The notes beneath the pieces are model-generated. The model saw nothing but the letters and a program-made list of their open reading frames with translations, did not search any database and was not told the origin of the DNA. This document shows positions 133 to 17,487 of a stretch of DNA of 51,213 bases, piece after piece. Origin of the DNA: Chloroflexota bacterium. GTDB taxonomy: Bacteria; Chloroflexota; Anaerolineae; Anaerolineales; Villigracilaceae. The stretch spans positions 1 through 51,213 of the forward strand of contig QMIW01000057.1 of assembly GCA_024434165.1 (NCBI GenBank), read 5' to 3'. Numbering within the stretch: position 1 is the first letter of the stretch; the number at the start of each line of letters is the position of its first letter. A program made the position numbers and the translations under genes.

Positions 133-738
133 ATGTTAACGGTAGTAATTCAAGCCGGTGGGCAGTCCTCGCGCATGGGGCAGGACAAAGCCCTCAAACC
201 ATTTTTGGGAAAGCCTCTGATTCAGCGTGTGGTGGAGCGGCTTTCCCCGATTGCGGATGAATTAATTGTAACGACAAACCGCCCCGAAGACTATGCTTTC
301 CTTAATGCGCGCCTCGTCCCGGACCTGAAACCTGGGCGCGGCGCGCTGGGCGGACTCTACACCGCAGTCGCTTCGGCGGGTCACCCGCTGGTGGCGGTCG
401 CCGCGTGCGACATGCCGTTCGCCAGTAAAAACTTCTTCGTAAGCGCAGCCAGCCTCATGGTCAGCGAAGAGGCGGATGTGATCATCGCAAAGACCGACGA
501 AGGCTACGAGCCGTTCCATGCCCTCTATCGCCGCGAGACCTGTCTTCCCGCCATCGAAGCCGCCATCGAAGCCGACCAATGGAAGGTCATCGCCTGGTTC
601 CCACAGGTGAAGGTGCGGACGCTCTCGCCCGATGAAATCAAAGCCTTCGACCCATCCGGTTTGTGTTTTTGGAACGTCAACACGCCGGGGGAATTCGAAC
701 AGGCTGAACAAATCGCCCAAACCCAGGAGACCAAATGA
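133..738 (+). CDS. mobA: Molybdenum cofactor guanylyltransferase (MobA family)
   Basis: A 201-residue nucleotidyltransferase expected to attach GMP to molybdopterin in the cytoplasm, giving the dinucleotide cofactor. The N-terminal loop AGGQSSRMGQDKA (residues 8-20) binds the nucleotide and phosphate. GRGALGG (69-75) and the metal aspartate in ACDMPF (D93) follow, and NVNTPGEF near the end is typical. I chose ATG 133 rather than the in-frame ATG at 25, because residues before 133 would come from the repeat element and the family starts just before this loop. The stop overlaps the next start (ATGA, 735-738). A related cytidylyltransferase is a weaker alternative. Confidence 0.85.
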   Translation: MLTVVIQAGGQSSRMGQDKALKPFLGKPLIQRVVERLSPIADELIVTTNRPEDYAFLNARLVPDLKPGRGALGGLYTAVASAGHPLVAVAACDMPFASKNFFVSAASLMVSEEADVIIAKTDEGYEPFHALYRRETCLPAIEAAIEADQWKVIAWFPQVKVRTLSPDEIKAFDPSGLCFWNVNTPGEFEQAEQIAQTQETK

Positions 739-2018
739 CGCCCAACACTTCGACTTCACTCAGCGCAAGCCTCAACCGCATACGTCAGCAATTCCCCGCA
801 TTGAGCCGCCCCGTGATTTTCTTCGACAACCCCGGCGGCACGCAGATCGCCCAGCCCAGCATCGAACGCATCACAAAATATCTGGTCGAAAGCAACGCCA
901 ACCATGAGGGCGCTTTCGCCACCAGCATCGCCTCCGATGCCATCCTCGATGAAGCGCATCGCGCCATGGCGGATTTTTACAACGCCGCCTCGCCGGAGGA
1001 GATCGTCTTTGGCAACAACATGACCACGCTCACCCTGCACATCAGCCGTTCGATCTCGCGCGAATGGAAGGAAGGCGATGAAATTGTGATCACCCGCCTC
1101 GACCACGACGCCAACGTCACGCCCTGGGTGCTGGCAGCGCAGGATCGCGGTGTGAAAATCAACTGGGTGGACTTCGACGTGGAGGACGGCACGCTCAAAC
1201 TCGATGAATTACAAAAAGCGCTCGAACGCAAGCCGAAACTGGTGGCGGTGGGATATGCGTCCAACTCGCTTGGCACGATCAACCCGGTGACGAGGATCAC
1301 CCAAATGGCGCACGATGCGGGCGCGCAGGTTTACGTTGACGCGGTGCAATACGCGCCGCACGGTCCCATTGATGTTCAGGCAATCGGCTGTGATTATCTG
1401 GTTTCTTCGGCGTATAAATTTTTCGGTCCGCATGTCGGCATCCTTTATGGCAGGCGCGACCTGCTCGAAAAACTTTTCGCCTACAAAGTCCGCCCCGCCA
1501 CCAACCAACTGCCCGGCAAGTTCGAGACCGGCACACAGAACCACGAAGGCATCGCGGGCGTGCTCGGCGTGCTTGAATATTTCGAGTGGATCGGACGCGA
1601 GTTTGGCGGCGACTATGCCGAGGGTTTGCAGGAAAATGGATACAGCGGACGCCGTCTCGAATTGAAAAAAGCCATGACCGCCATCCGCGCCTACGAGTTT
1701 GAATTGAGCCGCGCGCTTCTTTCCGCGCTGGAGACGGTTCCCGGAATCCGCATCTTTGGTCTCACCGACAGCCGCCGTCTTGACGAACGGGTGGCAACTT
1801 TCTCTTTTCGATTGAAGGACATACCCCCCAGAGAGGTCGCAGAAAAACTCGCCGCAGAAAATATCTACGTCTGGGATGGCAACTACTATGCCATCAACGT
1901 CACCGAGCGGCTGGGCCTCGAAGACCAGGGCGGCATGGTGCGCGTCGGCGCGGCGCATTACAACACGCTGGACGAAGTGACACGGCTGGGAGAGGTTTTG
2001 AAGAAGATTGCAGGGTGA
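735..2018 (+). CDS. Cysteine desulfurase-like PLP aminotransferase (class V)
   Basis: A 427-residue fold-type I PLP enzyme of the cysteine desulfurase-like family. The PLP lysine is K228 in SSAYKFFGPH, and D202 in VDAVQ should contact the pyridine nitrogen. The active-site loop region ATNQLPGKFETGTQNHEG follows. It is translationally coupled to mobA by an ATGA overlap. Coupling suggests sulfur transfer for molybdenum cofactor maturation (inference), but a general sulfur donor or another class V reaction is possible. No rhodanese or MOSC domain is attached. Confidence 0.8.
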   Translation: MTPNTSTSLSASLNRIRQQFPALSRPVIFFDNPGGTQIAQPSIERITKYLVESNANHEGAFATSIASDAILDEAHRAMADFYNAASPEEIVFGNNMTTLTLHISRSISREWKEGDEIVITRLDHDANVTPWVLAAQDRGVKINWVDFDVEDGTLKLDELQKALERKPKLVAVGYASNSLGTINPVTRITQMAHDAGAQVYVDAVQYAPHGPIDVQAIGCDYLVSSAYKFFGPHVGILYGRRDLLEKLFAYKVRPATNQLPGKFETGTQNHEGIAGVLGVLEYFEWIGREFGGDYAEGLQENGYSGRRLELKKAMTAIRAYEFELSRALLSALETVPGIRIFGLTDSRRLDERVATFSFRLKDIPPREVAEKLAAENIYVWDGNYYAINVTERLGLEDQGGMVRVGAAHYNTLDEVTRLGEVLKKIAG

Positions 2019-2024
2019 TTGAAG

Positions 2025-2056
2025 AAAGAGGAAAGAAGGGGGGCTTTCCTCTTTTT
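2025..2056 (+). terminator. Rho-independent terminator after the mobA operon
   Basis: Eleven-base perfect stem AAAGAGGAAAG / CTTTCCTCTTT (2025-2035 and 2044-2054) with a G-rich loop and a short T run, six bases after the stop codon at 2018. Confidence 0.75.
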
Positions 2057-2078
2057 GTTGGGAAGTGGTTGTAAAATA

Positions 2079-2106
2079 GGTTGGAAGGTTGAAGATTGGC
2101 GAATGA
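2079..2106. repeat. Period-7 array in the leader of the STAND gene
   Basis: Four consecutive 7-base units of the type GGTTGGA / AGGTTGA, just before the start at 2122. It is short, so alone it is weak; it counts because of similar arrays elsewhere. Confidence 0.45.
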
Positions 2107-2121
2107 CAAGGGCAGGCTGGT

Positions 2122-5094
2122 ATGGCAGAGAACGCTTTCGTAAAAATCGGAACAGCGCTCCTCAAACATCAGGTGAAGAAACTGGTGGGCGAGGAGGCTT
2201 TCGGCGCCATCGGCGAAGAACTCGCCGAGGTTGGCGGGGACAAACTCGACGCGTGGCTGGGTGACAAATCTACAATCGCAGAAATCGAAAAAGCTGCAAC
2301 CACAGCGCGCGATCTATTTCGCGGCAAAGTCAATGATGATGAAGTGGAACAATGGATGGTCATGTTGCCCATCCATGATTTGCCTGCTGTTCTTTCCGCC
2401 ATAGAAGAATTACCGATATCCCCTGACGAATCCAAACTTGAAAACGCTCTTCGTGAATCCATTGCGCTGAACTGGAAGAAACTTTCGTCTGAGCAAGTGA
2501 ACAACGCGGTCAAAGCGTTCATGTCCTGCTTGCGGAGCGCGTTACTGCCTGTCCAAAAACATACGTTGACGGTGATTGGTCGCTCGGTACTGCGGACGGA
2601 AGACAAGGTGGATAAACTTCTTCAATTATTCGAGAAGTTCATCGCTGCGGGGAAATTTGGAACGACAGAGGAAGCCAAAGGGCAAATCAAAACAGGCTGG
2701 TTCTATGGTCATCGCTACGGAGACTTGGCAACATTCACGGGTCGCGCTGCTGAATTTCAAATGCTCGATGAGTGGATAAACAACAACAACGACAACCTGC
2801 TGGTACTTACTGCCTTCGGCGGATTTGGCAAATCGGCGTTGACGTGGCAGTGGTTCAACAACAAGGTGGATAAAACAAAATGGCAAACGGCGGTGTGGTG
2901 GTCGTTCTATGAGAAGGAGTCGGGGTTTGAGAGTTTTCTCGCGGAGACGCTGAATCATCTTGGTATAGAGGTCAAAGCGTCGTCACGGATGCAACTCAAC
3001 GATCTGCTGGAGGCGATGCGCGGGACGAATATCCTGATCGTGCTGGATGGCTTCGAGCGGTTGCTGCGTCAATATGGGAGGATGGATGCGGCGCTGCAAC
3101 CTGACGATGAGGATGCTGACGTTGACCCATCCCAACGCGATTGCTCCTCCCCGCTGACAGAAACCTTCCTGCGCGGCTTGAGCGGCGCGGGGATGAAGTC
3201 CAAAGTCTTGATGACCACGCGCCTGTGTCCGCGTGTGCTGGAGAGCGCCGACGGTAAACTGCTCAAAGGCTGTCGCGAAGAGCCGCTCGCCGCCTTCTCA
3301 CCCAAGGACGCGGTGACGTACTTCCATAACGAAGGGATTAAAGCCACGCGCGCGGAGATCATCGAAGTGTGTTCCGCGTACGGCTATCACCCGTTGAGTT
3401 TGAGCCTGCTGGTCGGTTTGATCAATTCAGGCCACGAACAGCGCGGCGATATTGCGGCGGTGAAGAACCTGGAAATCTTCGAGGATGTGAGAGCCAGACG
3501 ACATCACGTTTTGGAACGCGCGTATGAAAGTTTAGCCCCCGAGCGCAGGGATTTGCTGAGCAAGATCTCCTGCTTTCGCGGCTCGATGGAATACGCCGTG
3601 CTCAAAAAGGTCTTCCCCAGCGCCGACTTGGACAAAGCCCTGCTCGACCTGCGCAAGCGCGGACTGCTTCTCGTCGCGTCGTCCCATCCCCAATCTACCA
3701 ACTCCCAACCTGCTGACTCCCAATTTACCAATTCCCAATCTACCAGATTCGATATGCACCCGATTGTGCGGCATTATGCCTACGATCACTTCACGGATGA
3801 GAAGGGGCGCAAAGAGGCGCACGTTGAACTTGCCATGCACTTTATTGACGCCATGCCCGTGACGAACACGAACGTGAAAACGCTGGAAGACCTTGCGCCC
3901 GTTATCGAACTGTATCATCACATGGTGGGGGCGGGGAATTTGGATGAGGCATTGAAATTATTCATTGACCGATTGGCAAGGCAACTGCTATATCAATTTG
4001 GCGCATATCAACTATGCATTGAACTTTTACACGCTTTATTTCTCGACGGTGAAGACAAACCGCCGCGCTTGAAACGAGAAGACGACCAAGCATGGACTCT
4101 CAACGGACTCGCTGGCTCCTATGCCATGAGCGGACAGCCGCGCCGAGCCGTTCCGCTGGTTTTGATGAGTAATGAACCTGATGAAAAAAGGGGCAACAAG
4201 AAAGGTGTCGCCATCGGGCTGGGGAATGTGGCGACACAGCAACTGGCCATCGGCGCGCTTAGGGATGCGGAGCGCAATCTGCGTCGCTATATTGAACTCA
4301 GCCGTGAATTGGGAATTGAAACAGAGAATGCAGACGCTTGGAATGAAGTAGGAAATTTATTGTTGTATCGTGGCTTATGGAAAGAAGCAGAAGACGAATT
4401 TCAAACAAGTCAAAAGTTGTTTGAAAAAGTGCGCAATATTCAAGGTCAATCTGTTTTATGGTCATACCGCGCCCTACGTTTCCTGCTCATGGCAAGGGAA
4501 GAAGTGATACTCGATACTCGAAAATCGAATAACGAATATCGAATATCGGCTATTGAATCCGCCCAACGCTCGCTTGAACTGGCAGTTGAATGGCAAAAAG
4601 TAACTGGGCGTGCCAATCCCAACCCCAGAGATTACACTCGTGGTCTTTGGCTTCTGGGTTCAGCCTATCGCGCCAATAATGAATTAACTCTGGCAGAAGA
4701 AAACCTGTCCAAAGCGCTCAACCTCTGTCGGCAAATCAATTTAGTCGAAATAGAATCCGACATCCTGCTTGATGTTGCGCGGCTGCGTTACGCTCAAGGC
4801 GATTTCAAAGACGCGCTGGAAAAAGCGTCCGAGGCGCTGGTGATCACGGAGCGTAGCGGGTACGTGTTGCAGGGGGCGGATGTGAATTTGTTTTTGGCGG
4901 AACTTGCCCTCACCCCCCACCCCTCTCCCGCTGGGAGAGGGGAGTCCGAGCGTAGCGAGGACGGGGTGAGGGCGGCGCGGAAGTATGCCGAGGAGGCGAA
5001 GAGGCTCGCGTATTGCGATGGTCCGCCGTATTATTACAAGGTGGCTTATGAGGAGGCGGAGAGGATGTTGGAAAGGTTGAATGAGCGGGGCTAA
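2122..5094 (+). CDS. STAND NTPase: NB-ARC-like ATPase with TPR region
   Basis: A 990-residue signal-transduction ATPase. Residues 1-190 are a helical N-terminal region of unknown function in the effector position. The NTPase core shows Walker A AFGGFGKSAL (231-240), Walker B ILIVLDG (304-310), the sensor-like VLMTTR (362-367), EEPLAAFSPKDAV (386-398), and GYHPLSLSLL (421-430) in place of GLPLAL. A winged-helix-like stretch follows, then TPR-like helical repeats from about 620 to the end. Such proteins act as oligomerising switches in defence or regulation; the trigger here is unknown. The gene stands alone with its own terminators. Three repeat insertions lie in frame (residues about 522-541, 795-812 and 928-951). 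Confidence 0.8.
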   Translation: MAENAFVKIGTALLKHQVKKLVGEEAFGAIGEELAEVGGDKLDAWLGDKSTIAEIEKAATTARDLFRGKVNDDEVEQWMVMLPIHDLPAVLSAIEELPISPDESKLENALRESIALNWKKLSSEQVNNAVKAFMSCLRSALLPVQKHTLTVIGRSVLRTEDKVDKLLQLFEKFIAAGKFGTTEEAKGQIKTGWFYGHRYGDLATFTGRAAEFQMLDEWINNNNDNLLVLTAFGGFGKSALTWQWFNNKVDKTKWQTAVWWSFYEKESGFESFLAETLNHLGIEVKASSRMQLNDLLEAMRGTNILIVLDGFERLLRQYGRMDAALQPDDEDADVDPSQRDCSSPLTETFLRGLSGAGMKSKVLMTTRLCPRVLESADGKLLKGCREEPLAAFSPKDAVTYFHNEGIKATRAEIIEVCSAYGYHPLSLSLLVGLINSGHEQRGDIAAVKNLEIFEDVRARRHHVLERAYESLAPERRDLLSKISCFRGSMEYAVLKKVFPSADLDKALLDLRKRGLLLVASSHPQSTNSQPADSQFTNSQSTRFDMHPIVRHYAYDHFTDEKGRKEAHVELAMHFIDAMPVTNTNVKTLEDLAPVIELYHHMVGAGNLDEALKLFIDRLARQLLYQFGAYQLCIELLHALFLDGEDKPPRLKREDDQAWTLNGLAGSYAMSGQPRRAVPLVLMSNEPDEKRGNKKGVAIGLGNVATQQLAIGALRDAERNLRRYIELSRELGIETENADAWNEVGNLLLYRGLWKEAEDEFQTSQKLFEKVRNIQGQSVLWSYRALRFLLMAREEVILDTRKSNNEYRISAIESAQRSLELAVEWQKVTGRANPNPRDYTRGLWLLGSAYRANNELTLAEENLSKALNLCRQINLVEIESDILLDVARLRYAQGDFKDALEKASEALVITERSGYVLQGADVNLFLAELALTPHPSPAGRGESERSEDGVRAARKYAEEAKRLAYCDGPPYYYKVAYEEAERMLERLNERG
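3688..3746. repeat. Period-7/8 array inside the STAND gene
   Basis: Units such as CCCAATC and TACCAAC repeat every 7-8 bases. Translated, they give a Ser/Thr/Asn/Gln-rich linker (residues about 522-541) between the NTPase core and the helical region. Confidence 0.75.
4508..4556. repeat. Exact period-7 array inside the STAND gene
   Basis: Seven consecutive 7-base units, starting with two identical TACTCGA copies and then drifting (AAATCGA, ATATCGA). It is read through as a polar segment in the TPR region. The A+T content is well above the flanking coding DNA. Confidence 0.85.
4906..4973. repeat. Nested palindromic repeat inserted in the STAND coding region
   Basis: A 68-bp element with an outer stem GCCCTCACCCC / GGGGTGAGGGC, an inner stem CCCCTCTCCC / GGGAGAGGGG and a third small hairpin. 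It stays open in frame and encodes a Pro/Gly/Ser/Glu-rich loop between TPR helices. The inner hairpin resembles those at 39013-39035 and 51190-51213. Confidence 0.85.
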
Positions 5095-5337: not shown

Positions 5338-5370
5338 AAAATGGACTCAACCAACAGTCGAGTCCATTTT
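5338..5370 (+). terminator. Terminator-like hairpin upstream of the thiolase-like operon
   Basis: Perfect 11-base stem AAAATGGACTC / GAGTCCATTTT with an 11-base loop, followed by GTTTA. It probably ends transcription from the STAND gene side. Confidence 0.65.
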
Positions 5371-5444: not shown

Positions 5445-5464
5445 CCCTCAGGCAAGGAGCAGTC

Positions 5465-6616
5465 ATGAACGAGAGAGTTGCCATAGCAGGCTTGGGCTGG
5501 GCGGGATTTCGACCAAAGACTCCCGACGTATCGTACAAGGAAATGATCTACGAAGCCGCCGTGCGCGCCTACAACGACGCAGGCGTGGACCCGCGCAAGG
5601 ACATCGAGTCCTTCGTCACCGTCGCCGAGGACTTCCACGAAGGCACCAGCATCTTCGACGAATACACGCCCGACCAGCTCGGCGCGGCGATGAAGTCCAT
5701 GCACACCATCACAGGCGACGGGCTTCACGGACTCGCCACGGCGGTCATGCTCATCCGCACGGGGCAATTCGACATCGTCGCGCTCGAAGGTCACAGCAAA
5801 GCCTCCAACATCCTCACCCTCGACACCATCACCGCCTACGCACAAGACCCCGTCCTCAACCGTCCCTTGCGGCTCAACACGCACTTCGTCGCGGGGATGG
5901 AGATGAATCGCTACCTGCACGAAAGCGGCGCGGATGAAGACGCCTGCGCAGGAGTCGTCGTCAAGAATCGACGCAACGCCCTGAAGAATCCCCTCGCCTC
6001 ATTCGCCGCCTCGCTCTCTCTGGACGAGGTGCTTGCTTCTCCTCCCCTGGCTTTGCCCATCGGGACGGCTGAATCTGCCAAACCTGTGGACGGTGCGGTG
6101 GTAATGGTGCTGGCATCTGAAAAGGTCGCCGCAACTCTCACCGACAAACCGATCTGGATCGCGGGCATCGGCTGGTGCAGCGACTCGCCTTCGCTTGAAT
6201 CGCGCGCATGGGCAAGACTGCCCTACATCGAAAAAGCCGCGCGCATGGCGTATCGTCAGGCGGGAATCACCAATCCCTACCGCGAAATTCATTTCGCGGA
6301 AATAGACGATACCTATGCCTACAAAGAACTGCAATCGCTCGAAGCGCTCGGTGTGTGCGGCTTCGGTCAGGCGGGCGCGCTTCTCAAAGACGGCGCGCTC
6401 GACCCCGACGGTGAATTCCCTGTCAACGTATCGGGAGGCAGCCTGGGCGTGGGTCACCTGCTCGACGCGACGGGACTGCATCGGGCGTTGGAAACAGCCC
6501 TCCAGTTAAGAGGCGAAGCGGGCGCGCATCAATTGGAAGATGTCCACGTCGGTCTGGTCCAATCCTGGCGCGGAGTCCCCACCACCAGCGGCGCGGTCGC
6601 GGTGTTGATGAATTGA
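5465..6616 (+). CDS. Thiolase-fold protein lacking the catalytic cysteine (SCP2-thiolase-like A)
   Basis: A 383-residue protein of the archaeal/SCP2-like thiolase class. The C-terminal half keeps a glycine-rich block SGGSLGVGHLLDATG, with the His of the GHP motif but not its Pro. Where thiolases have the nucleophile cysteine, this one reads TITGDGLHG (about residues 81-89). Thiolytic acyl transfer is therefore unlikely. Members without Cys that pair with DUF35 proteins, such as the Ltp2/ChsH2 pair of steroid side-chain degradation, act as aldolases. It heads a co-directional cluster with a second such protein and two DUF35 partners. Substrate unknown. Confidence 0.8.
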   Translation: MNERVAIAGLGWAGFRPKTPDVSYKEMIYEAAVRAYNDAGVDPRKDIESFVTVAEDFHEGTSIFDEYTPDQLGAAMKSMHTITGDGLHGLATAVMLIRTGQFDIVALEGHSKASNILTLDTITAYAQDPVLNRPLRLNTHFVAGMEMNRYLHESGADEDACAGVVVKNRRNALKNPLASFAASLSLDEVLASPPLALPIGTAESAKPVDGAVVMVLASEKVAATLTDKPIWIAGIGWCSDSPSLESRAWARLPYIEKAARMAYRQAGITNPYREIHFAEIDDTYAYKELQSLEALGVCGFGQAGALLKDGALDPDGEFPVNVSGGSLGVGHLLDATGLHRALETALQLRGEAGAHQLEDVHVGLVQSWRGVPTTSGAVAVLMN

Positions 6617-6628
6617 GGATCGCGGAGG

Positions 6629-6673
6629 ACGCGGATGTAGAACAAGTCTATAGACTTGTTCCACGCAATCCGT
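6629..6673. repeat. Perfect palindrome between the two thiolase-like genes
   Basis: A 22-bp perfect inverted repeat (arms GAACAAGTCTA / TAGACTTGTTC, 6640-6661) sits inside outer arms containing GCGGAT and ATCCGT. It could be an mRNA-stabilising hairpin or another repeat family. Confidence 0.7.
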
Positions 6674-6688
6674 ATAAAGGAGTTGTCA

Positions 6689-7849
6689 ATGCGTAAAGTT
6701 GCAGTCATTGGCGCGGGGATGACCAAATTCGTCCGCCGCGCATTGGAGACGCCCAAGGAACTCTCGTGGCACGCCGCGAAGATGGCGCTCGACTCGTGCG
6801 AGTTGACCATGGACGACATCGAAGCCACCTGCTTTGGCACCGCGCCCGACGCCTTCGACGGAGTCCACATGAATGGCGAATACGCCAGCGACGGTGCAGG
6901 CGGATGGGGCAAGCCTTACATGCGTTCGTACGTCGGCGGCGGGACGGGCGTGTTCAATGCGGCTCAGGGCTGGTATCACGTCGCTTCGGGCATGTTCGAC
7001 GTGGTAATGGTGGTGGCGGAGGAAAAGATGTCTTCGTTCTATCCGCACGCCCAAGCCGCCTTCCTCACGATTTTTGACCACACCACCGAGCGCGCGCTGA
7101 AGCCCAACCTGTTGTGGATCTTCGCGCTCGAAATGAACCGTTACATGACCACATACGGGATCAAGAAGGAAGACATCGCCCGCGTCTCGGTGCAGCACAA
7201 ACGCAACGCCGCAAACCATCCCTGCGCGCTGCTCGGCGAACCGAACATCACCGTGGAAGATGTCTTGAACTCCGAAACGCTTGCCTGGCCCGTGCAGCGC
7301 TTCGACGTCTCGCCCGTGTCGGATGGCGCGGTGGCGATCATCCTCGCCGCCGAACACGTCGCCAAACGTCTGACCAGCAAACCCGTCTGGATCGAAGGCG
7401 TGGGCTGGCATCTCGATTCCGCATATTGGACGAACCGCGACCTGGTCTATCCGCGTTACGTCGAATACGCCGCGAAGATGGCGTATGACATGGCGGGCAT
7501 CAAGGAGCCGCGCAAGGAAATCCACATCGCCGAGCCGTACGATCCGTTCGATTACAAAGCCCTGCATCACCTCGAAGGTCTGCAACTCGCGGACCGCGGC
7601 AAGGCGGTGGAACTCTACATCAACGGCACGGCGGCACGCGACGGCAGCATGCCAATCTGTCCCTCTGGCGGATTGCTCGGCGTGGGCAACCCCATCGCCG
7701 CGGCGGGACTGATGAAGATTGCCGAACTGTTCTGGCAGTTGCGTGAAGAAGCGGGCGCGCGGCAGGTGCCTGGTCAACCCAGGCGCGGCGTCGCCCAAGC
7801 CTGGGGCGACCTCATGCAGGTCGGCACGGTGGTGGTCATGGGAAGGTAG
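6689..7849 (+). CDS. Thiolase-fold protein lacking the catalytic cysteine (SCP2-thiolase-like B)
   Basis: A 386-residue paralogue of the preceding gene. ATG 6689 follows a good ribosome site (AAAGGAG); the in-frame ATG at 6656 lies inside the palindrome. The nucleophile position reads YVGGGTGVF (81-89), so Cys is absent. The usual GHP motif is GNP in SGGLLGVGNPIAAAG, so the His is lost too. The SCP2-thiolase pattern AELFWQLREEAGARQVPG is well kept. Two non-identical, differently degenerate subunits suggest a heteromeric aldolase-like or CoA-binding complex with the DUF35 proteins rather than two thiolases. Confidence 0.8.
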   Translation: MRKVAVIGAGMTKFVRRALETPKELSWHAAKMALDSCELTMDDIEATCFGTAPDAFDGVHMNGEYASDGAGGWGKPYMRSYVGGGTGVFNAAQGWYHVASGMFDVVMVVAEEKMSSFYPHAQAAFLTIFDHTTERALKPNLLWIFALEMNRYMTTYGIKKEDIARVSVQHKRNAANHPCALLGEPNITVEDVLNSETLAWPVQRFDVSPVSDGAVAIILAAEHVAKRLTSKPVWIEGVGWHLDSAYWTNRDLVYPRYVEYAAKMAYDMAGIKEPRKEIHIAEPYDPFDYKALHHLEGLQLADRGKAVELYINGTAARDGSMPICPSGGLLGVGNPIAAAGLMKIAELFWQLREEAGARQVPGQPRRGVAQAWGDLMQVGTVVVMGR

Positions 7850-7890
7850 ACGATGGACGGTGGACGATAGACGATGGTCCATGGTCAATG
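7849..7890. repeat. Exact period-7 spacer array
   Basis: Six consecutive units (GACGATG, GACGGTG, then GACGATA, ending GTCCATG, GTCAATG) fill the space from the stop codon at 7849 to the ribosome site of the next gene. Confidence 0.85.
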
Positions 7891-7902
7891 CAAGGAGCGA
7901 AC

Positions 7903-8430
7903 ATGACATCAAGAATCAAACATTTCCCTGGCACATCCCTCCACGAGAGCGATTTCGACGAGGGCAAGGTGCTGTTCGTCCACGATGAACTGAAAGCCAA
8001 CTACGCCTGGGACGCGGGCATCGGCATTGGCTCGTATCTCGCAGGACTCAAGCGCGGCGTCATCCTCGGCTCATATTGCGCGCACTGCCGCAAAACCGTC
8101 GTCCCGCCGCGTGTAGTCTGCGAGTGGTGCTTCCATCCGATGAGCGAGTATGTCCCCGTGAAGGATACAGGCACGGTCAATACCTTTTCGCTCTGCTACG
8201 TGACCTGGGACGTACAGCGCATCACCGAGCCTGAGATTCCCGCCGTCATCATGCTCGACGGCGCGTCCGCGCTGAGCGAGTCGTCTGTGGTCATGGGCGG
8301 CATTCTGCATAAACTTGGCGAAGTGGATCCGCAGAAGGTTCACATTGGCATGCACGTGCAGGCGGTGTGGAAGCCCGAGTCCGAACGCGAAGGCGCGATC
8401 ACGGACATTCTTTACTTTAAACCGATTTAA
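7903..8430 (+). CDS. DUF35 zinc-ribbon/OB-fold protein, thiolase partner 1
   Basis: A 175-residue acyl-CoA-binding-type accessory protein. A zinc ribbon is formed by C59, C62, C73 and C76 (CAHC and CEWC), followed by the DUF35 OB-fold with its usual ending before ILYFKPI. I chose ATG 7903 because AAGGAG lies seven bases upstream; the in-frame ATG at 7888 falls inside the period-7 array. DUF35 proteins bridge thiolase-like subunits and bind the CoA moiety. The N-terminal 50 residues are an extra segment of unknown role. Confidence 0.8.
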   Translation: MTSRIKHFPGTSLHESDFDEGKVLFVHDELKANYAWDAGIGIGSYLAGLKRGVILGSYCAHCRKTVVPPRVVCEWCFHPMSEYVPVKDTGTVNTFSLCYVTWDVQRITEPEIPAVIMLDGASALSESSVVMGGILHKLGEVDPQKVHIGMHVQAVWKPESEREGAITDILYFKPI

Positions 8431-8492
8431 ACACAAAGGACACTAAGAACACAAAGGAAAACCTTTGTGTTCCTTCGTGGACTTCGTGTTTA
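8428..8492. repeat. Hairpin element with TAAACAC ends, family D
   Basis: Outer arms TAAACAC / GTGTTTA and a perfect inner stem AACACAAAGG / CCTTTGTGTT with an AAAA loop. It begins in the stop codon of the previous gene and ends at the ribosome site of the next. A second, longer member lies at 25190-25303. Confidence 0.8.
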
Positions 8493-8502
8493 GGAGAAAA
8501 TT

Positions 8503-8967
8503 ATGACCCTCCTCGAACGCGACAAACACGCCCCCGCCGCCTGGCACGGAAATCTCCCCGTCACCAGCCGTTACACCTACGGCATCGCTGGCGAAAAATT
8601 CTTCCGCGCGTTGAAAGACGAAGGCAGGATCATGGGGACGGTCTGCCCCAACTGCGGCTTGACCTACGTCCCCGCCGCCGCCTTCTGCGAACGCTGTCTC
8701 TCCGAACTGACTGAGTGGGTGGATGTCGGTCTCGTCGGCGAACTGCACACCTTCACCATCCTCTTCGTGGATTACGAGGGCAACCCGCTCGACGAGCCCG
8801 AACTGGTCGGCTTCGTCAAATTTGGCGATGGCGGCATCGTCCACAAACTGGAAGCCGAGCCTGACACACTGGCAATCGGCATGAAAATGGAAGCGGCGCT
8901 GAAACCCAAGTCCAAGCGTACAGGCTCGATTTTGGATATCGAACATTTCAAGCCAATCAAGACATAG
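8503..8967 (+). CDS. DUF35 zinc-ribbon/OB-fold protein, thiolase partner 2
   Basis: A 154-residue paralogue of the preceding gene. The zinc ribbon has C48, C51, C62 and C65 (CPNC and CERC), followed by the OB-fold (roughly 70-140) ending IEHFKPIKT. The ribosome site AGGAGA precedes ATG 8503. Two DUF35 genes after two thiolase-fold genes suggest matched pairs or one four-component complex. It is the last gene of the cluster; a hairpin terminator follows at 9094. Confidence 0.8.
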   Translation: MTLLERDKHAPAAWHGNLPVTSRYTYGIAGEKFFRALKDEGRIMGTVCPNCGLTYVPAAAFCERCLSELTEWVDVGLVGELHTFTILFVDYEGNPLDEPELVGFVKFGDGGIVHKLEAEPDTLAIGMKMEAALKPKSKRTGSILDIEHFKPIKT

Positions 8968-9138: not shown

Positions 9139-9948
9139 TCACGGATAGGGAACCTTCAAGGCTCCCAACCGCTTCGCAAAATCCACTTTCAGTGACCGTA
9201 CCCGCAGCGGCGTCATGCCGATGACACATTCCTGCATGTCCGTGCCGCCGAATTCGAGCGGCAGTTTGTAGTAAAACATCGTATAACCGCCTTCATAATA
9301 GATGATGTCTCCGTTTTCAGGAGCGGCTGCGGCAGGGAGAAACTCCCAGGGTCGCGTGCCCGGCAGAATATCCTGGGAAATCAGGTTGAATCTTTGAAGA
9401 ACGAAAAGCGCAAAGTTGGGGGAATCGAAACCTTCTGCTTCCGAAAACCCGCCCGGATTCCAGGGGACGTCGCGGTATTGAATCTCCTGCAAATACAAAA
9501 GCATCTCGACTTGAACCGTGTAATCGCTCGAATATTCCTTCAAAACCGTTTCATCAATGCGGCATCCATATTCGGCGAACGCCTGCACCCGACTCAATTC
9601 CGACATGGCTTCCCCGATCTGCGCTGTGGCGGTCGCCAGTTGAGCGGTTGCCGTTGCCAGGGCTGAATTTGCCTGCGATACTTCAGTCTGCGCTGCTGCC
9701 AGCTCGGCTTGCGCCTGCGGCACCTCCGCTTGCAGGGCGGCAAAGTCCTGTTCCACTGCGGCAAGCTGACCGTTGGCGGCGGCGAGTTTCGCCTGCGCCT
9801 GGGCGATCTGCCAGGCGGTGTATGCCAGAAAAAGGAGGGCGAAGACGACGGGTATCCCGCTCAGCAACCAGGCCCGGCGGCGGGCGAGGCGCTCCCGTTC
9901 TTCGATCTTTTGGGATAGCGACTCCAGCTGTTCTTCTGAAAAACCCAT
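9139..9948 (-). CDS. Membrane-anchored coiled-coil protein with degenerate NlpC/P60-like domain
   Basis: A 269-residue protein with a short cytoplasmic N-terminus, one membrane helix (about 29-49), an Ala/Gln-rich coiled coil (about 50-118) and a C-terminal domain. The last domain recalls NlpC/P60: GFDSPNFALFVLQRF stands where a DCSGF motif is expected, and NGDIIYY where GDLVFF is expected. The catalytic Cys and His are not visible, so a non-enzymatic binding role is more likely. It follows the next gene by 12 bases, probably as one operon. The domain assignment is tentative. Confidence 0.6.
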   Translation of the reverse strand: MGFSEEQLESLSQKIEERERLARRRAWLLSGIPVVFALLFLAYTAWQIAQAQAKLAAANGQLAAVEQDFAALQAEVPQAQAELAAAQTEVSQANSALATATAQLATATAQIGEAMSELSRVQAFAEYGCRIDETVLKEYSSDYTVQVEMLLYLQEIQYRDVPWNPGGFSEAEGFDSPNFALFVLQRFNLISQDILPGTRPWEFLPAAAAPENGDIIYYEGGYTMFYYKLPLEFGGTDMQECVIGMTPLRVRSLKVDFAKRLGALKVPYP

Positions 9949-9960
9949 CTGCCACTCCTC

Positions 9961-10356
9961 TCAATTCAGGGCTGTTCGTTCGATGTATTTCCACATCAAC
10001 TCTTCGATTCGCTTTCGGGTGCGGATTTGTTCCGTTTTCGGAATCCCTTTCAGGTTTTTCAATTGCCCCCGAAGCGTCTCGAATCCCTGGATTTTTTCCT
10101 TGCGGTTGAGAATCTCCTTGATCTGAAACCCGCTCAACGACAGGACAAACGAACCGCCCACGCCGAACAGCCCTTTGAACACGTCGGGAAGGAGCGAAGC
10201 GCCGGGGGGCAGCCAGGCGGGGGAAAGAAATGCCAACGCAATAACGATCACCCCCAGGGTTACCAGCCCGGCGACAAAAAATACATAATATCGGATTGCC
10301 CTGCGTTGATTATGAATCAATTGATCCAGGAAATTCTCGCTGGTAAAAGCATCCAT
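9961..10356 (-). CDS. Small membrane protein with two membrane helices
   Basis: A 131-residue protein with two hydrophobic segments (about 21-45 and 55-80) and a basic C-terminal helical tail rich in Lys, Arg and Glu. No family recognised. I chose the start at 10356 because a sigma70-like promoter lies just upstream; the longer frame would run through that promoter. First gene of the two-gene operon with the coiled-coil protein. Confidence 0.65.
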   Translation of the reverse strand: MDAFTSENFLDQLIHNQRRAIRYYVFFVAGLVTLGVIVIALAFLSPAWLPPGASLLPDVFKGLFGVGGSFVLSLSGFQIKEILNRKEKIQGFETLRGQLKNLKGIPKTEQIRTRKRIEELMWKYIERTALN

Positions 10357-10375
10357 GGGGTAAAATCCTGTATTC

Positions 10376-10403
10376 AGTATAATCGTTACATAAAAAAAAT
10401 CAA
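10376..10403 (-). promoter_or_regulatory. Sigma70-like promoter of the minus-strand membrane operon
   Basis: On the minus strand TTGATT (10398-10403), 16 bases, TATACT (10376-10381), then 19 bases to the start codon at 10356. Confidence 0.6.
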
Positions 10404-10422
10404 CAGGATTTTTACCCGCGCC

Positions 10423-10471
10423 TTCCAATCCCCAATCCTCAACCTCCAGTCTCTAGTCTCCCATTTACCCT
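10423..10471. repeat. Exact period-7 array ending at the MCC beta start codon
   Basis: Seven consecutive units (TTCCAAT, CCCCAAT, then CTCCAGT, CTCTAGT) end one base before ATG 10473, leaving no recognisable ribosome site. Confidence 0.85.
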
Positions 10472-10472
10472 C

Positions 10473-12101
10473 ATGGAAACCCTTCCCACCTCCATCTCCC
10501 CCGACGACCCGCAATTTCTCGAAAACAAAAAACACAACCTTGCCCTCGTCCGCATCCTGCGCGAGCGGCTCGCCATCGCGCGGCAGGGCGGCGGGGAAAA
10601 ATACCGCAAACGTCACGAGGAGCAGGGCAAACTCTTCGTGCGCGAACGCATCGAACGCCTGCTCGACCCCGGCTCCCCCTTTCTCGAACTCTCGCCGCTT
10701 GCCGCGTTTGGCATGTACGACCTCGACGCACATTCCGCAGGCATCGTCACCGGCATCGGGCGCACCTCCAACCGCGAGGTGATGATCGTCGCCAACGACG
10801 CCACCGTCAAAGGCGGCTCGTATTTTCCCCTCACGGTCAAGAAACATTTGCGCGCCCAACAGATCGCCGAAGAGAATCATCTGCCCTGCTTGTATCTTGT
10901 GGATTCGGGCGGCGCGAACCTGCCGTTTCAGGATGAAGTCTTCCCGGACGCGCATCACTTCGGGCGCATCTTCTACAACCAGGCGCGCATGTCCGCAAAA
11001 AAAATTCCGCAGGTCGCAGCCGTCATGGGCAGCTGCACGGCGGGCGGCGCGTACGTTCCCGCCATGAGCGATGAGGCGGTCATTGTCAAAGGCGCAGGGA
11101 CGATCTTCCTGGGCGGACCTCCGCTGGTCAAAGCCGCCACCGGCGAGGATGTCACCGCCGAGGAACTTGGCGGCGCGGATGTCCACACGCGCAAATCGGG
11201 CGTGGCGGATCACTTCGCCGAGGATGATGACCATGCCATCGAAATCCTTCGTGCGATTGTGGAGGCCCTCCCGCGCGGGCACATGCGAACGCACTCGCAT
11301 CTTTCCGGACTGGAAGTTGCTCCACCCGAGGAGCCTTTGTACCCCGCCGACGAGTTGTACGGCATCCTGCCGCGCACCTTCAAAGAGACCTACGACGTCC
11401 GCGAGGTCATCGCCCGCATCGTGGATGGAAGCAAATTCCGCGAGTTCAAGTCGCGCTACGGCACGACGCTGGTCACCGGCTTCGCCCGCATTCACGGATA
11501 CCCCGTCGGCATCGTCGCCAACAACGGAGTCCTGTTCAGCGAGTCGGCGCTCAAAGGGACGCACTTCATCGAACTGTGCGACCAGCGCGGCATTCCCCTG
11601 CTCTTCCTGCAAAACATCACCGGCTTCATGGTCGGCAAGGACTACGAAAACAGCGGCATCGCCAAAGATGGCGCAAAGATGGTTCACGCCGTTGCCACCA
11701 CCCGCGTGCCGAAATTGACCCTCGTCATCGGCGGCTCGTTCGGCGCGGGCAACTACGCCATGGCGGGCCGCGCCTACGGCTCGCGTTTCCTGTGGATGTG
11801 GCCCAACGCCCGCATCTCCGTCATGGGCGGCGAACAAGCCGCGAACGTCCTGCTCACCATCAAGCAGGATCAACTCGCCCGCGAAGGCAAACCGCTCCTC
11901 ACCCCGGAAGAAGCGGAAGAGTTCAAACGCCCCCTGCTCGACAAATACGAACGCGAAGGCAGTCCCTACCACTCCACCGCCCGTCTCTGGGACGACGGCA
12001 TCATTGACCCGGCGGATACCCGGCAGGTTTTAGGTTTGGCGCTTTCGATTGTATTGAACGCGCCGAAGGAAGAAGGCGGGTTTGGGGTGTTTAGAATGTA
12101 G
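10473..12101 (+). CDS. mccB: Methylcrotonyl-CoA carboxylase beta (carboxyltransferase) subunit
   Basis: A 542-residue biotin-dependent carboxyltransferase, the length expected for the family. The signature blocks [47 protein letters not shown] and [19 protein letters not shown] match the methylcrotonyl-CoA type rather than propionyl- or acetyl-CoA types. It should transfer carboxyl from carboxybiotin to methylcrotonyl-CoA in leucine degradation. Geranyl-CoA carboxylase is a close alternative. The biotin carboxylase and carrier lie 2 kb downstream, separated by a broken gene and repeat elements. Confidence 0.9.
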
Positions 12102-12103
12102 AT

Positions 12104-12138
12104 GACGATAGAAAGTGGAAAGTAGAAAGTGAGATGAG
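12104..12138. repeat. Exact period-7 array between mccB and a broken gene
   Basis: Five consecutive units (GACGATA, GAAAGTG, GAAAGTA, GAAAGTG and a drifted one) start after the stop at 12101 and end at the ATG at 12139. Confidence 0.85.
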
Positions 12139-12452
12139 ATGAATTATCAGGAATGGCTGAAGACAGTATCAGAGGAAATTACCCAACTCATGTTACGCAA
12201 ATTCACCAAAGGGGCAGCCCGCCAAGGCTGGACGCAGTTTCAATCAACAAGAAAGGGTCGCCCTTTGCGAAGAGTTTTCTAAAGAATGCAGTTGGGGCGC
12301 CCTGCCGCGTAACATCAGTTACCCAAGACCCGCTTTGGGGATTGGATGTTCACCGACCTGACTTATTCATTGCAGATATTACCTGGGATGAATCTGAAGT
12401 CGTTTCACATCGTATGAAGGTTCTCACACAAATCATCAAAATTCTTAAGTAG
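12139..12452 (+). pseudogene. Broken small gene, probable four-helix-bundle protein, split by a palindromic element
   Basis: The frame from ATG 12139 (MNYQEWLKTVSEEIT) is cut after 15-16 codons by a 136-bp element. The sequence ttaccca(a) occurs on both sides (12179 and 12319). Removing 140 bp joins the frame exactly to DPLWGLDVHRPDLFIAD and on to the TAG at 12450-12452, giving a 57-residue product. The start and end resemble the ends of the four-helix-bundle (23S rRNA intervening sequence) proteins common in this group, with the middle missing. The TAG is provided by a family A element, so the tail is probably lost too. Confidence 0.6.
12185..12320. repeat. Palindromic element, family B, copy 3, with target duplication
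   Basis: Ends AACTCATGTTACGC (12185-12198) and GCGTAACATCAGTT (12307-12320) are inverted copies with one mismatch. Flanking TTACCCA copies at 12179-12185 and 12319-12325 look like a 7-8 bp target duplication. No transposase inside, so it would need to move in trans. Confidence 0.75.
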
Positions 12453-12545
12453 TCGGTCGAAATAAATTTTACAAAAATACGCTCCCGGCGGCGTCCCCGC
12501 CGCCGAGGACGGCGGCATGAGCAGGAATTTGTTTTCTAAAAATCC
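12445..12545 (-). repeat. Palindromic MITE-like element, family A, copy 2
   Basis: The reverse complement of 12446-12542 is identical to 1-97. The terminal repeat at 12445-12458 supplies the TAG that ends the broken gene. The other end stops just before the ATG at 12546, and the outer left terminal repeat seen at 31873 is absent. Confidence 0.85.
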
Positions 12546-13028
12546 ATGTCCCACAAATCCTCTTCCCCCCACCGCTTCCTCGCACAACTTGCCGGTCACT
12601 GGCAAGGCTCATCCAAACTCTGGCTCGAGCCCGGTAAACTCGCCGGGGAATCGCCCATTGCCGGAACGATCCAACTCATCCTCGATGGGCGCTTCGCCCT
12701 CCTCCTCTACGAATCCTCCATCGAAGGCGAACCCCAGCACGGCATGTTCACCTTCGGTTACAACACCCTGCTCGACCGCTTCGAAGCCTCCTGGCTGGAT
12801 TCCTTCCACAACAACACCGCCATCATGTTCTGCACAGGCAGCCCGAAAGACAACGGCTTCTACGTCACCGGCAGTTACCCCGACCCCGGCGGCGGACCCG
12901 ATTGGGGCTGGCGCACCGAGGTGGAACTGACCGACCCCGACCATCTCCGCATCACCGCCTACAATATCATGCCGGACGGCGCCGAAGCGAAGGCAACCGA
13001 AGCGCTTTTGACAAAGGTGAAACCATGA
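12546..13028 (+). CDS. DUF1579-family protein
   Basis: A 160-residue cytoplasmic protein of the DUF1579 type: LAGHWQGSSKLWLEPG near the start, then a beta-rich lipocalin-like pattern with GTIQLILDGRFALLLYES and GMFTFGYN. The function of the family is unknown. It starts right at the edge of a repeat element, so its original upstream region may have been replaced. Its stop overlaps the next start (ATGA, 13025-13028). Confidence 0.7.
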   Translation: MSHKSSSPHRFLAQLAGHWQGSSKLWLEPGKLAGESPIAGTIQLILDGRFALLLYESSIEGEPQHGMFTFGYNTLLDRFEASWLDSFHNNTAIMFCTGSPKDNGFYVTGSYPDPGGGPDWGWRTEVELTDPDHLRITAYNIMPDGAEAKATEALLTKVKP

Positions 13029-14014
13029 AGATTCTCATCATCGGCGGCACACGCTTCCTCGGGCGGCACATCGTCAATTCCGTCCGCGTGCGCGGGCACG
13101 ACCTCACCCTTTTCAATCGCGGACAGACCAATCCCAGCCTGTTCCGCAAGGTCAAACGCTACCAGGGAGACCGGGAACGGGACCTGGACCAACTGCCGGG
13201 TCAGTGGGATGCGGTCATTGACACCTGCGGCTACCTCCCGCGCATCGTCAAAATATCCGCCGAAGCGTTGAAGGACAAGGTCGAGAAATATGTTTTCATC
13301 TCCAGCATTTCGGTCTATGCCGATTTCAGCAGGTTCGGAATCAAGGAGAGCGACCCCGTTGGAAAACTCGAAGACGAAACGGTGGAAGAGATCACCGGCG
13401 GGACGTATGGTCCATTGAAGGCGTTGTGCGAAAAAACGGTGCAGGATGTGTACGGGGTCAACTCGCTCATCATCCGTCCCGGTCTGATCGTCGGTCCGCA
13501 CGATCCGACCGACCGCTTCACGTATTGGGTGATGCGCACAGCGCGCGGCGGCGAAGTGCTCGCGCCCGATAAACCCGAAGCGCTTACGCAGTTCATTGAC
13601 GCGCGCGACCTTGCCGATTTCATTATCAATTTGATCGCAAACGACATGTCGGGCGTCTTCAACGTCACCGGACCCGAAACGCCGCTTTCGTTCGGCGCGC
13701 TGCTCGATACCTGCAAAATGGTCAGCAGCAGCAATGCGAGGTTTGTCTGGGCGCCGCTCGAGTTTCTCCAACGAAACAACGTTGCGCCGTGGAGCGACAT
13801 GCCCGCCTGGATGCCCGATGCAGGCGAAGACGCCGGCTTTACGCGCGTGGATGTTTCCAAAGCCGTCAAAGCCGGGCTGACGTATTCGTCCCTTGCCACC
13901 ACCATCAGGGACACGCTCGAATGGGCGGGCGAGCGTCCCGCCGATTACGAAATGAAAGCGGGCTTGAAACCCGAACGCGAAAAAGAATTGCTGGAGCTGC
14001 TGCGTGTTCAATAA
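13025..14014 (+). CDS. NAD-dependent epimerase/dehydratase (extended SDR)
   Basis: A 329-residue Rossmann protein beginning KILIIGGTRFLGRH, with the GGTRFLG variant of the nucleotide loop. An active-site YGPLK (Y-x3-K) follows a serine-rich SSISVY. It resembles the SDR subgroup of plant CSP41-like and bacterial isoflavone-reductase-like epimerases; the substrate is unknown. Start chosen at 13025 from the ATGA overlap. Its end overlaps the biotin carboxylase start by 11 bases, so it sits in the carboxylase operon without an obvious role there. Confidence 0.8.
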   Translation: MKILIIGGTRFLGRHIVNSVRVRGHDLTLFNRGQTNPSLFRKVKRYQGDRERDLDQLPGQWDAVIDTCGYLPRIVKISAEALKDKVEKYVFISSISVYADFSRFGIKESDPVGKLEDETVEEITGGTYGPLKALCEKTVQDVYGVNSLIIRPGLIVGPHDPTDRFTYWVMRTARGGEVLAPDKPEALTQFIDARDLADFIINLIANDMSGVFNVTGPETPLSFGALLDTCKMVSSSNARFVWAPLEFLQRNNVAPWSDMPAWMPDAGEDAGFTRVDVSKAVKAGLTYSSLATTIRDTLEWAGERPADYEMKAGLKPEREKELLELLRVQ

Positions 14015-16620: not shown

Positions 16621-17487
16621 ATGCGTTCCCGACGAGCCTTACTCTACATGCCCGGCGACAACTGGAAGATGATCACCAAAGCCGTCACCCTGGGCGTGGA
16701 TTCGATCTGCATGGACATGGAAGACGGCACCGCCGTCAACAAAAAAGCCGAAGCCCGCGCCACGATTGCGAAGGCATTGCAGGAACTGGATTTCGGCGCG
16801 AGCGAAAAACTGGCGCGCATCAACTCGGTCGGTTCGGGCTGGGAGCAGAACGACATCGAAGCCGTCCTGCCGTACCGCCCGGATGGGATCGTGATTCCCA
16901 AAGTGGAATCCTACGACCACGTCGAATGGGCAGGCAAAATCATCGAAGACGCCGAATTGAAATACGGCTGGCAGGTCAATTCGATTCGCATTTTGATCGG
17001 CGTGGAAACCGCGAAGGGGATTTTGAATTTGAAGGAGATCGCATCTCACCCGCGCCTGGATGCGATCATCTTCGGCGGCGAAGACTTTGCCGCTTCCATC
17101 GGCGCGGCGCGCACGAAGGACGCCGTCGAGTTGTTGTATGCGCGGCAGGCGGTCTTGGTCGCGTGTGCGGCAAACGACTTGCAGGCGATTGATATCGTCA
17201 CGATTGACTACAAGGATTTGGAATCCCTCCGCGTCGAAGCGGAGCAGGGAGCCGGGCTCGGCTTCAGCGGGAAACAGGTCATTCACCCGAACCAGGTCCC
17301 GGTGGTGCAGGAGGCGTTCACTCCGTCCGATGAAGCGGTTGCGTATGCAAAACGAATCGTCGAAACCTTCGAAGCCAGTCAGAAGGAAGGCAAAGGCGCG
17401 TACTCCCTGGACGGTAAAATGATAGACATGCCGCTGTTGAAAAACGCCCAGAAAGTTCTGACGCGCGCGAAAGCGGCGGGGAAGTAA
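16621..17487 (+). CDS. CitE-like acyl-CoA lyase (HpcH/HpaI aldolase family)
   Basis: A 288-residue TIM-barrel lyase. LYMPGDNWKM opens the chain; R66 (ARIN) and E129 (GVETAKG) match active-site residues, and D155 (GGEDFAASIG) is the second Mg2+ ligand. It cleaves beta-hydroxyacyl-CoA esters such as citramalyl-, malyl- or (R)-HMG-CoA. Next to MCC and a MaoC hydratase it parallels Mycobacterium Rv2498c, described as acting in leucine and itaconate breakdown. It is a stand-alone protein, not a citrate lyase subunit. Ribosome site AAGGAG precedes ATG. Confidence 0.85.
   Translation: MRSRRALLYMPGDNWKMITKAVTLGVDSICMDMEDGTAVNKKAEARATIAKALQELDFGASEKLARINSVGSGWEQNDIEAVLPYRPDGIVIPKVESYDHVEWAGKIIEDAELKYGWQVNSIRILIGVETAKGILNLKEIASHPRLDAIIFGGEDFAASIGAARTKDAVELLYARQAVLVACAANDLQAIDIVTIDYKDLESLRVEAEQGAGLGFSGKQVIHPNQVPVVQEAFTPSDEAVAYAKRIVETFEASQKEGKGAYSLDGKMIDMPLLKNAQKVLTRAKAAGK

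Follow-up and report, generated by a model that had tools for sequence, protein, structure and literature searches.

Two cysteine-less thiolase-fold proteins and their two DUF35 partners: a conserved gene set that may encode a non-thiolase acyl-CoA enzyme

What kind of enzyme, if any, is encoded by two adjacent thiolase-fold genes whose products both lack the nucleophilic cysteine? This question is raised by a stretch of 51,213 nucleotides (hereafter, the window) from a Chloroflexota bacterium of the family Villigracilaceae, corresponding to contig QMIW01000057.1 of assembly GCA_024434165.1. The genome (G000, with the window as its contig C135) comprises 4.4 megabases in 173 contigs and is 98% complete. 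Four genes on the forward strand, here called A, B, D1 and D2, were confirmed at positions 5465-8967 in the list of open reading frames (ORFs); the first two encode thiolase-fold proteins, and the last two zinc-ribbon DUF35 proteins. The original prediction, made from the letters of the DNA, proposed that they form a probably new complex of the aldolase type. The set is real and conserved, and belongs to already catalogued families without a function. As for its role, the chances seem evenly balanced that the four proteins constitute one heteromeric, non-thiolase lyase or aldolase acting on carbon-carbon bonds of acyl-coenzyme A (acyl-CoA) substrates, in which B would be the catalytic subunit and A a decayed partner.

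The identity of the four genes is supported by domain models. Thiolase_C_1 from Pfam scores above cut-off in A and B, and Thiolase_N does so in B as well. Both D1 and D2 hold zf-ChsH2 and OB_ChsH2_C (PF12172 and PF01796, together known as DUF35) above cut-off, in line with the two DUF35 genes originally described, and their four zinc cysteines are kept in 76-78 of 78 rows of the D1 family alignment and in 72-75 of 75 rows of that of D2. B is a member of the NCBIfam family NF004721 (PRK06065), with 620.9 bits against a curated cut-off of 455, and A remains narrowly below the cut-off of NF004722 (PRK06066), with 491.8 bits against 516. None of 301 sampled Chloroflexota genomes exceeds the cut-off of this second model, yet eight match it at E 2.3e-138 or better. 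Both families are named just "thiolase domain-containing protein", with no function attached, and both proteins fall well short of the cut-offs set for the lipid-transfer-protein models. The word new in the original prediction needs qualifying, as both proteins belong to catalogued families (A just under the cut-off). No publication mentioning PRK06065 or PRK06066 was found in a search that left out most subscription journals, and, within the same limits, no title or abstract opening found for the DUF35/thiolase literature names the A/B pair.

The relatives used to examine the active sites come from a contig scan with B, which yielded 208 proteins, the best 80 of which were retained (loci L017-L096). 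The scan did not select for active-site motifs, since these were absent from its peptide patterns. Residue columns were taken from an alignment of 17 A and 17 B proteins with TcLtp2 (6ok1), a cysteine-bearing thiolase (7yvy), BbsB (7pxp), 4u4e and other thiolases, and residues were counted in family alignments of 81 B and 74 A rows, the window proteins included. As originally noted, both window proteins lack the nucleophilic cysteine. In the alignment with 7yvy and 7pxp, its place is taken by Thr83 in A (TITGDGLHG) and by Gly84 in B (YVGGGTGVF). The glycine is found in 81 of 81 B proteins, and also in TcLtp2. The A loop is three residues shorter, which makes its exact column somewhat uncertain, and the family shows Thr in 27 proteins, Pro in 16, Ala in 13, Ser in eight, Gly in five and Cys in four, with one gap.

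The two histidines of thiolases are not preserved as a pair either. At the column of the HDAF histidine, B has Tyr284 (YDPF), which aligns with the base Tyr294 of TcLtp2 and is found in all 81 proteins, and A has Asp281, in a family with 64 Asp, five Cys, three Asn, two Ser and no Tyr. At the column of the GHP histidine, which is also that of Tyr344 of Ltp2, B has Asn334 (GNP; 81 of 81) and A has His331 (GHL). This difference between GHL and GNP is as first described, although the histidine is not a conserved feature of A (His in 52 of 74, followed by 11 Asn, four Tyr, three Asp, two Phe, one Ser and one Arg). In addition, Pro286 of B, at the position of Cys304 of Sal, is Pro in 80 of 81 proteins. 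A cysteine contributed by another loop, which would have spoken against the original prediction, was sought throughout both families and none is invariant, the most conserved being Cys37 (78 of 81) and Cys324 (74 of 81) in B and Cys161 (69 of 74) in A. None of the four aligned reference sites shows the resulting combination of B, Gly / Tyr-Asp-Pro / Asn.

Conservation also separates both proteins. The identity of B to the window protein ranges from 72 to 97% over the best 80 loci, and its active-site blocks (VGGGTG, EPYDPF.YK and GVGNPI) are nearly constant. B is better conserved than A in all 72 loci holding both, with a median gap of 15.3 points. The two proteins are not equivalent: only the site of B is aldolase-like, and A has Asp, Cys, Asn or Ser instead of the tyrosine. 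Other deviating thiolase-fold proteins were observed along the way. The source genome encodes a thiolase-like protein with Gly at the nucleophile column, an intact HDAF and GFP for GHP (L004, G000:C121:23936-25051), as well as a cysteine-bearing thiolase (L003, contig C123), and another cysteine-less kind, with Asp at that column (EAADASG) and HDAF kept, is found in L098 and L101 (genomes G049 and G051).

The doubled cysteine-less set is kept as a unit. A, B, D1 and D2 are colinear on one strand in 70 of the best 80 loci, 66 of them recognised by script (in a few, such as L018 and L049, a contig end truncates A or D2) and four more (L037, L041, L042 and L043) passed over by the script because of overlapping tblastn pieces, although their hits are ordered A-B-D1-D2. 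Among the remaining ten, nine lose a member at a contig end, and L050 has no visible D2 on a contig that is long enough. Extra ORFs lie between A and B in some loci. According to their record titles, which can be wrong for metagenome bins, the 80 loci come from Chloroflexi, Actinobacteria, Symbiobacterium, Krumholzibacteria, Armatimonadetes, Acidobacteria, WOR-3 and others, the nearest ones being Chloroflexi/Anaerolineales metagenome-assembled genomes. As records of other phyla show this gene order too, a chance arrangement is not an issue.

In spite of the strong conservation of B, the distribution is patchy. Among the 301 Chloroflexota genomes, A (E 1e-90) and B (E 1e-100) occur in the same eight. 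B exceeds its cut-off in 26 of 296 genomes of the phylum sample of an Actinobacteria-titled genome (G063), and in one of 41 genomes of the genus and order of the window, namely its own. A member of the genus, G017, carries all four genes with its B divided between two frames (L006, G017:C1:422384-424851), either a decayed gene or an assembly error. Among 14 named control genomes, at the thresholds given above for A and B, only that of Sulfolobus acidocaldarius matches the A and B models, both above cut-off; these are model matches, and the gene-order counts refer to bacterial loci. Judged by these matches, the statement that archaeal thiolase/DUF35 complexes keep their cysteine, made in the original prediction, does not appear to be general.

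The phylogeny places both proteins away from the known enzymes. In a maximum-likelihood tree of 57 proteins, with 17 rows for A and 17 for B, each of the two families forms a monophyletic group (100/100), and together with an Actinobacterial pair (L097 and L107) they lie on one side of a 100/99 branch, with Ltp2 and 4u4e, and the cysteine thiolases and BbsB, on the opposite side. The sister join of A and B (93/89) is not starred and is flagged as a meeting of long branches, as is that of Ltp2 with 4u4e. When the tree was rebuilt without A, B again joined the Actinobacterial pair (99/97) rather than Ltp2, adjoining one member of the pair (98/87); without B, A grouped with the pair as well (100/97), weakly adjoining the other member (92/45). 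The separation from Ltp2 is firm, because it is held in all three trees. It is unsure whether A and B are closest sisters. Because they lean to different members of the Actinobacterial pair, two ancient paired lineages are equally possible.

This Actinobacterial pair, found in two genomes, is a second, related pair of adjacent cysteine-less thiolase-fold genes (L097 at 1441-2583 and 251-1444, minus strand; L107 at 2658-3800 and 1468-2661, minus strand), with Glu or Gly at the nucleophile column, the tyrosine kept and Asn at the GHP position. In L097, a DUF35 gene (2587-3096) adjoins it. The doubled cysteine-less arrangement hence extends beyond the A-B-D1-D2 module, and the existence of this second pair suggests that the pairing may be older than the module itself.

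AlphaFold models, which served for fold comparison only, reached a mean predicted local distance difference test (pLDDT) score of 82.9 for B and 89.9 for A, with values below 50 in B at 54-65, 82-84, 120-122, 126-139 and 331-335. Members of the SCP2-thiolase/DUF35 group matched with VIA Z scores of 42.7-50.4 (B) and 44.8-53.4 (A), against at most 35.2 and 38.2 for classical thiolases. The top match among those listed is 6esq (50.4 for B and 53.4 for A), and Ltp2 reaches 43.6 and 46.8. Judged from these models, the fold of A and B is closer to that of the SCP2-thiolase/DUF35 branch than to that of classical thiolases.

From this evidence we infer a physical complex in which A, B, D1 and D2 would be subunits of one enzyme of this branch that does not work as a thiolase. 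The roles of catalytic B and decayed A are proposed by analogy with PhlC and PhlA. With no cysteine, the site of B cannot carry out thiolysis by way of an acyl-Cys enzyme. At the beta-oxygen of a CoA thioester, Tyr284 of B would serve as general base/acid, and the thioester enolate would be stabilised by Asn334 and by the Gly-rich loop found in place of the Cys loop. As both residues suit base catalysis and enolate stabilisation, the predicted result is retro-aldol or aldol chemistry on a substrate of the 3-hydroxyacyl-CoA type. Like PhlA next to PhlC, A, whose own active site appears decayed, would make the complex complete, and perhaps the substrate cavity too. D1 and D2 are predicted to bind A and B and to help shape the CoA/acyl site. 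The pathway would probably belong to the catabolism of short or branched acyl-CoAs.

The gene neighbourhood suggests acyl-CoA catabolism as well. On the same strand and within 6 kilobases of the start of B, acyl-CoA dehydrogenase genes occur in at least 22 of the 80 loci, the A and B subunits of a CoA-transferase in at least nine and ten, and a CitE-like (HpcH) lyase in at least five, these counts being lower bounds, with the full distance reached downstream in 52 and upstream in 48 loci. In five Chloroflexota loci (L023, L032, L035, L041 and L042), a CitE-like homologue immediately precedes A, and the lyase of the window is 79.5% identical to one in L017. The CoA-transferase is similar to glutaconate CoA-transferase (171 bits to chain B of 1poi), and one of its glutamates aligns with that of the ESG segment of 1poi, presumably the catalytic one. 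FabG (at least 18 loci) and FabD (at least eight) are found within the same distance, and farther away in 25 and 20 loci, respectively, in the order FabD-FabG-Asp23-NusB-TatC. In the Actinobacterial locus L087, a thiolase with full Thiolase_N and Thiolase_C domains lies between two acyl-CoA dehydrogenases behind the module. ORFs of 526-593 residues behind D2 in four loci have no Pfam match and may be spurious. Outside the module, ten stretches around the CoA-transferase have nothing common to all; acyl-CoA dehydrogenases adjoin it in L132 and L133, and an acyl-CoA-ligase-like gene (27% identity) and a few unlabelled shared genes do so in the Actinobacterial L134 and L135.

Several observations weigh against an aldolase formed by the four proteins. 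B lacks the catalytic acids of both Ltp2 (Tyr344, here Asn334) and Sal (Cys304, here Pro286), and for this reason the aldolase reading of B is plausible rather than proven; as a guess from its conserved residues, Tyr289, His293, His294 or His177 could be the acid. The aldolase-type kinship originally proposed stands insofar as Ltp2-ChsH2 and Sal-Shy are the nearest mechanistic precedents and B has their base tyrosine, but with the general acids replaced the residues provide no proof. Neither do A and B group with Ltp2 in the trees, the model of B is poorest precisely at the active-site loops (82-84 and 331-335), and four of the 74 A proteins (L027, L029, L043 and L079) have Cys at the nucleophile column. 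Concerning the pathway, subunit B of the CoA-transferase is present (E 1e-20) in just 27 of 43 module genomes and the neighbours differ among lineages, so that no single pathway is fixed. Furthermore, neither MaoC nor enoyl-CoA hydratase appears among the annotated neighbour proteins, which represent part of all neighbours, in contrast to Ltp2 and Sal, which work with ChsH1/ChsH2 and Shy.

Enolate stabilisation would be equally needed if B were a decarboxylase or starter enzyme acting, in a KSQ-like manner, on malonyl- or other beta-carboxyacyl thioesters, perhaps in fatty acid synthesis, a reaction that would dispense with the hydroxyl base. FabG and FabD near the module are consistent with this role, and so is Asn334, which at the position of the GHP histidine is located where FabH has its catalytic Asn. 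A very slow decarboxylation of malonyl-CoA has also been reported for the cysteine-less relative TbSLP, but CtSal failed to carry it out (PMC12329534, available excerpt). All 25 loci with FabG are, however, titled as Chloroflexota, and the presence of NusB, Asp23 and TatC there suggests that the position on the chromosome may be a fixed one. A and B occur in S. acidocaldarius, though archaea are described as having no acyl carrier protein genes (PMC6449355, available excerpt), and the invariant tyrosine at the aldolase base position would be superfluous for decarboxylation. All this leaves the decarboxylase only a small chance. Other non-covalent acyl-CoA chemistry in the B site, such as Claisen or acyl transfer without acyl-Cys, thioester hydrolysis, or hydration/isomerisation, is unlikely. 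A site unlike all four references would fit it, and the full thiolase with two acyl-CoA dehydrogenases in L087 suggests that the missing step, similar to beta-oxidation, may be other than thiolysis. Nevertheless, the two known characterised enzymes with Tyr at this column, Ltp2 and Sal, are both aldolases, and the same tyrosine in 4u4e and TbSLP comes without an established function.

The absence of the cysteine from both proteins would also suit the alternative named in the original prediction, in which A and B would be a non-catalytic channel or scaffold that passes CoA or acyl-CoA between neighbouring enzymes. DUF35 has indeed been proposed as an acyl-CoA delivery module (PMC2954200, available excerpt), and channelling has been described in the thiolase/3-hydroxy-3-methylglutaryl-CoA (HMG-CoA) synthase complex (PMC12329534, same excerpt). 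A scaffold would have no need for active-site loops as unchanged as those of B, and no constant partner enzyme is encoded next to the module, which makes this explanation improbable. Finally, it is scarcely credible that the module simply belongs to the steroid aldolases of the Ltp2 or Sal type. It shares with them the fold, the Gly at the nucleophile column, the base tyrosine and the DUF35 partners, but this candidate is contradicted by the trees and the replaced acids, as well as by the stand-alone DUF35 genes, the two thiolase-fold proteins, the presence in Sulfolobus and the low scores against lipid-transfer-protein models.

The features of the locus are collected below.

Features of the A-B-D1-D2 locus and a possibly related gene in the window
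Feature	Position	Strand	Description
A	5465..6616	+	383-residue thiolase-fold protein, Cys-less, degenerate active site, PRK06066-like; proposed partner subunit
B	6689..7849	+	386-residue thiolase-fold protein, Cys-less, highly conserved, PRK06065; proposed catalytic subunit
D1	7903..8430	+	175-residue DUF35 protein (zf-ChsH2 + OB_ChsH2_C), zinc ribbon and OB-fold; zinc Cys 59, 62, 73, 76
D2	8503..8967	+	154-residue second zinc-ribbon and OB-fold DUF35 protein; zinc Cys 48, 51, 62, 65
HpcH/HpaI (CitE-like) lyase	16621..17487	+	possibly same pathway; outside the core
Shine-Dalgarno of A	5454-5459	+	AAGGAG, read from sequence
Shine-Dalgarno of B	6676-6682	+	AAAGGAG, read from sequence
Shine-Dalgarno of D1	7892-7897	+	AAGGAG, read from sequence
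Shine-Dalgarno of D2	8492-8496	+	AGGAG, read from sequence

Consecutive genes are separated by 72, 53 and 72 bases, and each Shine-Dalgarno sequence lies 5-6 bases upstream of the corresponding ATG. The start of B was set at ATG 6689, preceded by a good Shine-Dalgarno sequence, although the mechanical ORF begins earlier, at TTG 6656; D1 has an alternative start at ATG 7888. The next genes downstream (9139-10428) are on the opposite strand. A terminator-like inverted repeat, scored on the minus strand, lies at 5338-5370 between a tetratricopeptide repeat (TPR) gene and A, and a second long one, likewise terminator-like on the minus strand, at 8445-8474 between D1 and D2; the scan found seven such sites in the window against 4.4 expected by chance. 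The G+C fraction of the module is 0.597, compared with a mean of 0.575 (standard deviation 0.017) for 3.5-kilobase stretches of the window, and its composition gives no sign of recent foreign origin.

Other features of the window were recorded in passing. The TPR gene (2122-5094) encodes a 990-residue protein with TPR repeats according to Pfam and a STAND-type NTPase-like segment recognised by eye only, and a 580-residue protein at 30145-31887 (minus strand) has a TIR-like part, also by eye only. Close to their starts, the ORFs beginning at 25 and 31915 have the peptide PPGAYFCKIYFDRLL in common, suggestive of a short repetitive DNA element. Acyl-CoA carboxylase genes (carboxyltransferase, biotin carboxylase and biotin carrier) are located at 10473-15991, and a DUF1579 gene and an epimerase-like gene are interspersed among them. 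A leucine-type pathway composed of these genes and the CitE-like lyase was considered and dropped as a local link, because the three carboxylase proteins gave no blastp hit at E 1e-10 among the ORFs of the 80 loci.

A broader claim can be made tentatively, and with less confidence than that of the single enzyme: the module would represent a new class of heteromeric thiolase-fold carbon-carbon lyases/aldolases with a Gly/Tyr/Asn site, that Sulfolobus has in common with scattered phyla of bacteria and in which a catalytic cysteine-less subunit is obligately paired with a decayed relative, each perhaps with its own DUF35 protein, in a general, non-steroid and undescribed acyl-CoA pathway. In the literature found, part of it available as excerpts, the characterised cysteine-less thiolase-fold enzymes with DUF35 partners act in steroid side-chain degradation only. 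If true, the module would carry this chemistry into general metabolism, add to the examples of thiolase-fold partner subunits that have decayed and give content to two empty "thiolase domain-containing protein" annotations. Both large subunits are also found in S. acidocaldarius, a genetically tractable archaeon. Moreover, labelling such proteins as acetyl-CoA acetyltransferases is probably an error, with consequences for the reconstruction of pathways.

Among the known systems, the TcLtp2-ChsH2 aldolase (6ok1) resembles B in the thiolase fold, the Gly at the nucleophile column, the base tyrosine of the YDxF motif (Tyr294, corresponding to Tyr284) and the DUF35 partner. It differs in having a single thiolase-fold protein, Tyr344 as acid (Asn334 in B), the DUF35 part inside the hydratase subunit and its place in a separate clade. 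The column of this acid in A is mostly His or Asn, with Tyr in four of 74 proteins. The CtSal-Shy aldolase (9myr) likewise lacks the nucleophilic cysteine, has its base Tyr302 in the same motif and works with a DUF35 partner, but it uses a catalytic Cys304 after the Tyr-Asp (Pro286 in B), has only one thiolase-fold protein and belongs to the bile acid pathway. According to the available excerpt of PMC12329534, mutagenesis showed Tyr294 of TcLtp2 and Tyr302 of CtSal to be catalytic, the acids are Cys304 in Sal and Tyr344 in Ltp2, and DUF35 proteins hold such complexes of the thiolase superfamily together.

The doubling of the set with a cysteine-less partner is not unprecedented. The acyltransferase PhlACB (5m3k; PpATase), with the composition Phl(A2C2)2B4, has two subunits of the thiolase superfamily bridged by a DUF35 protein, one of them, PhlA, being inert with Gly for Cys, and acyl transfer involves residues of PhlC only (PMC6392133, available excerpt). 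On the other hand, PhlC keeps its Cys88, whereas neither A nor B of the window has an acylatable cysteine, and PhlA is similar to HMG-CoA synthase and KASIII, while A and B are closely related to one another. The genes of the module lie side by side, as do those of PhlACB, but with two DUF35 genes instead of one. The mevalonate pathway complex 6esq shares the DUF35 scaffold and is the top listed fold match of both models, although Cys85 of its thiolase and Cys114 of its synthase are present. Lastly, the best solved-structure match of both D1 (E 1.8e-10) and D2 (E 2.5e-16) is the DUF35 protein SSO2064 from Saccharolobus solfataricus (3irb). Three locus numbers from it, SSO2061 appears in PMC3518317 (available excerpt) as an acetyl-CoA acetyltransferase, so that a similar cluster is likely to exist in Saccharolobus.

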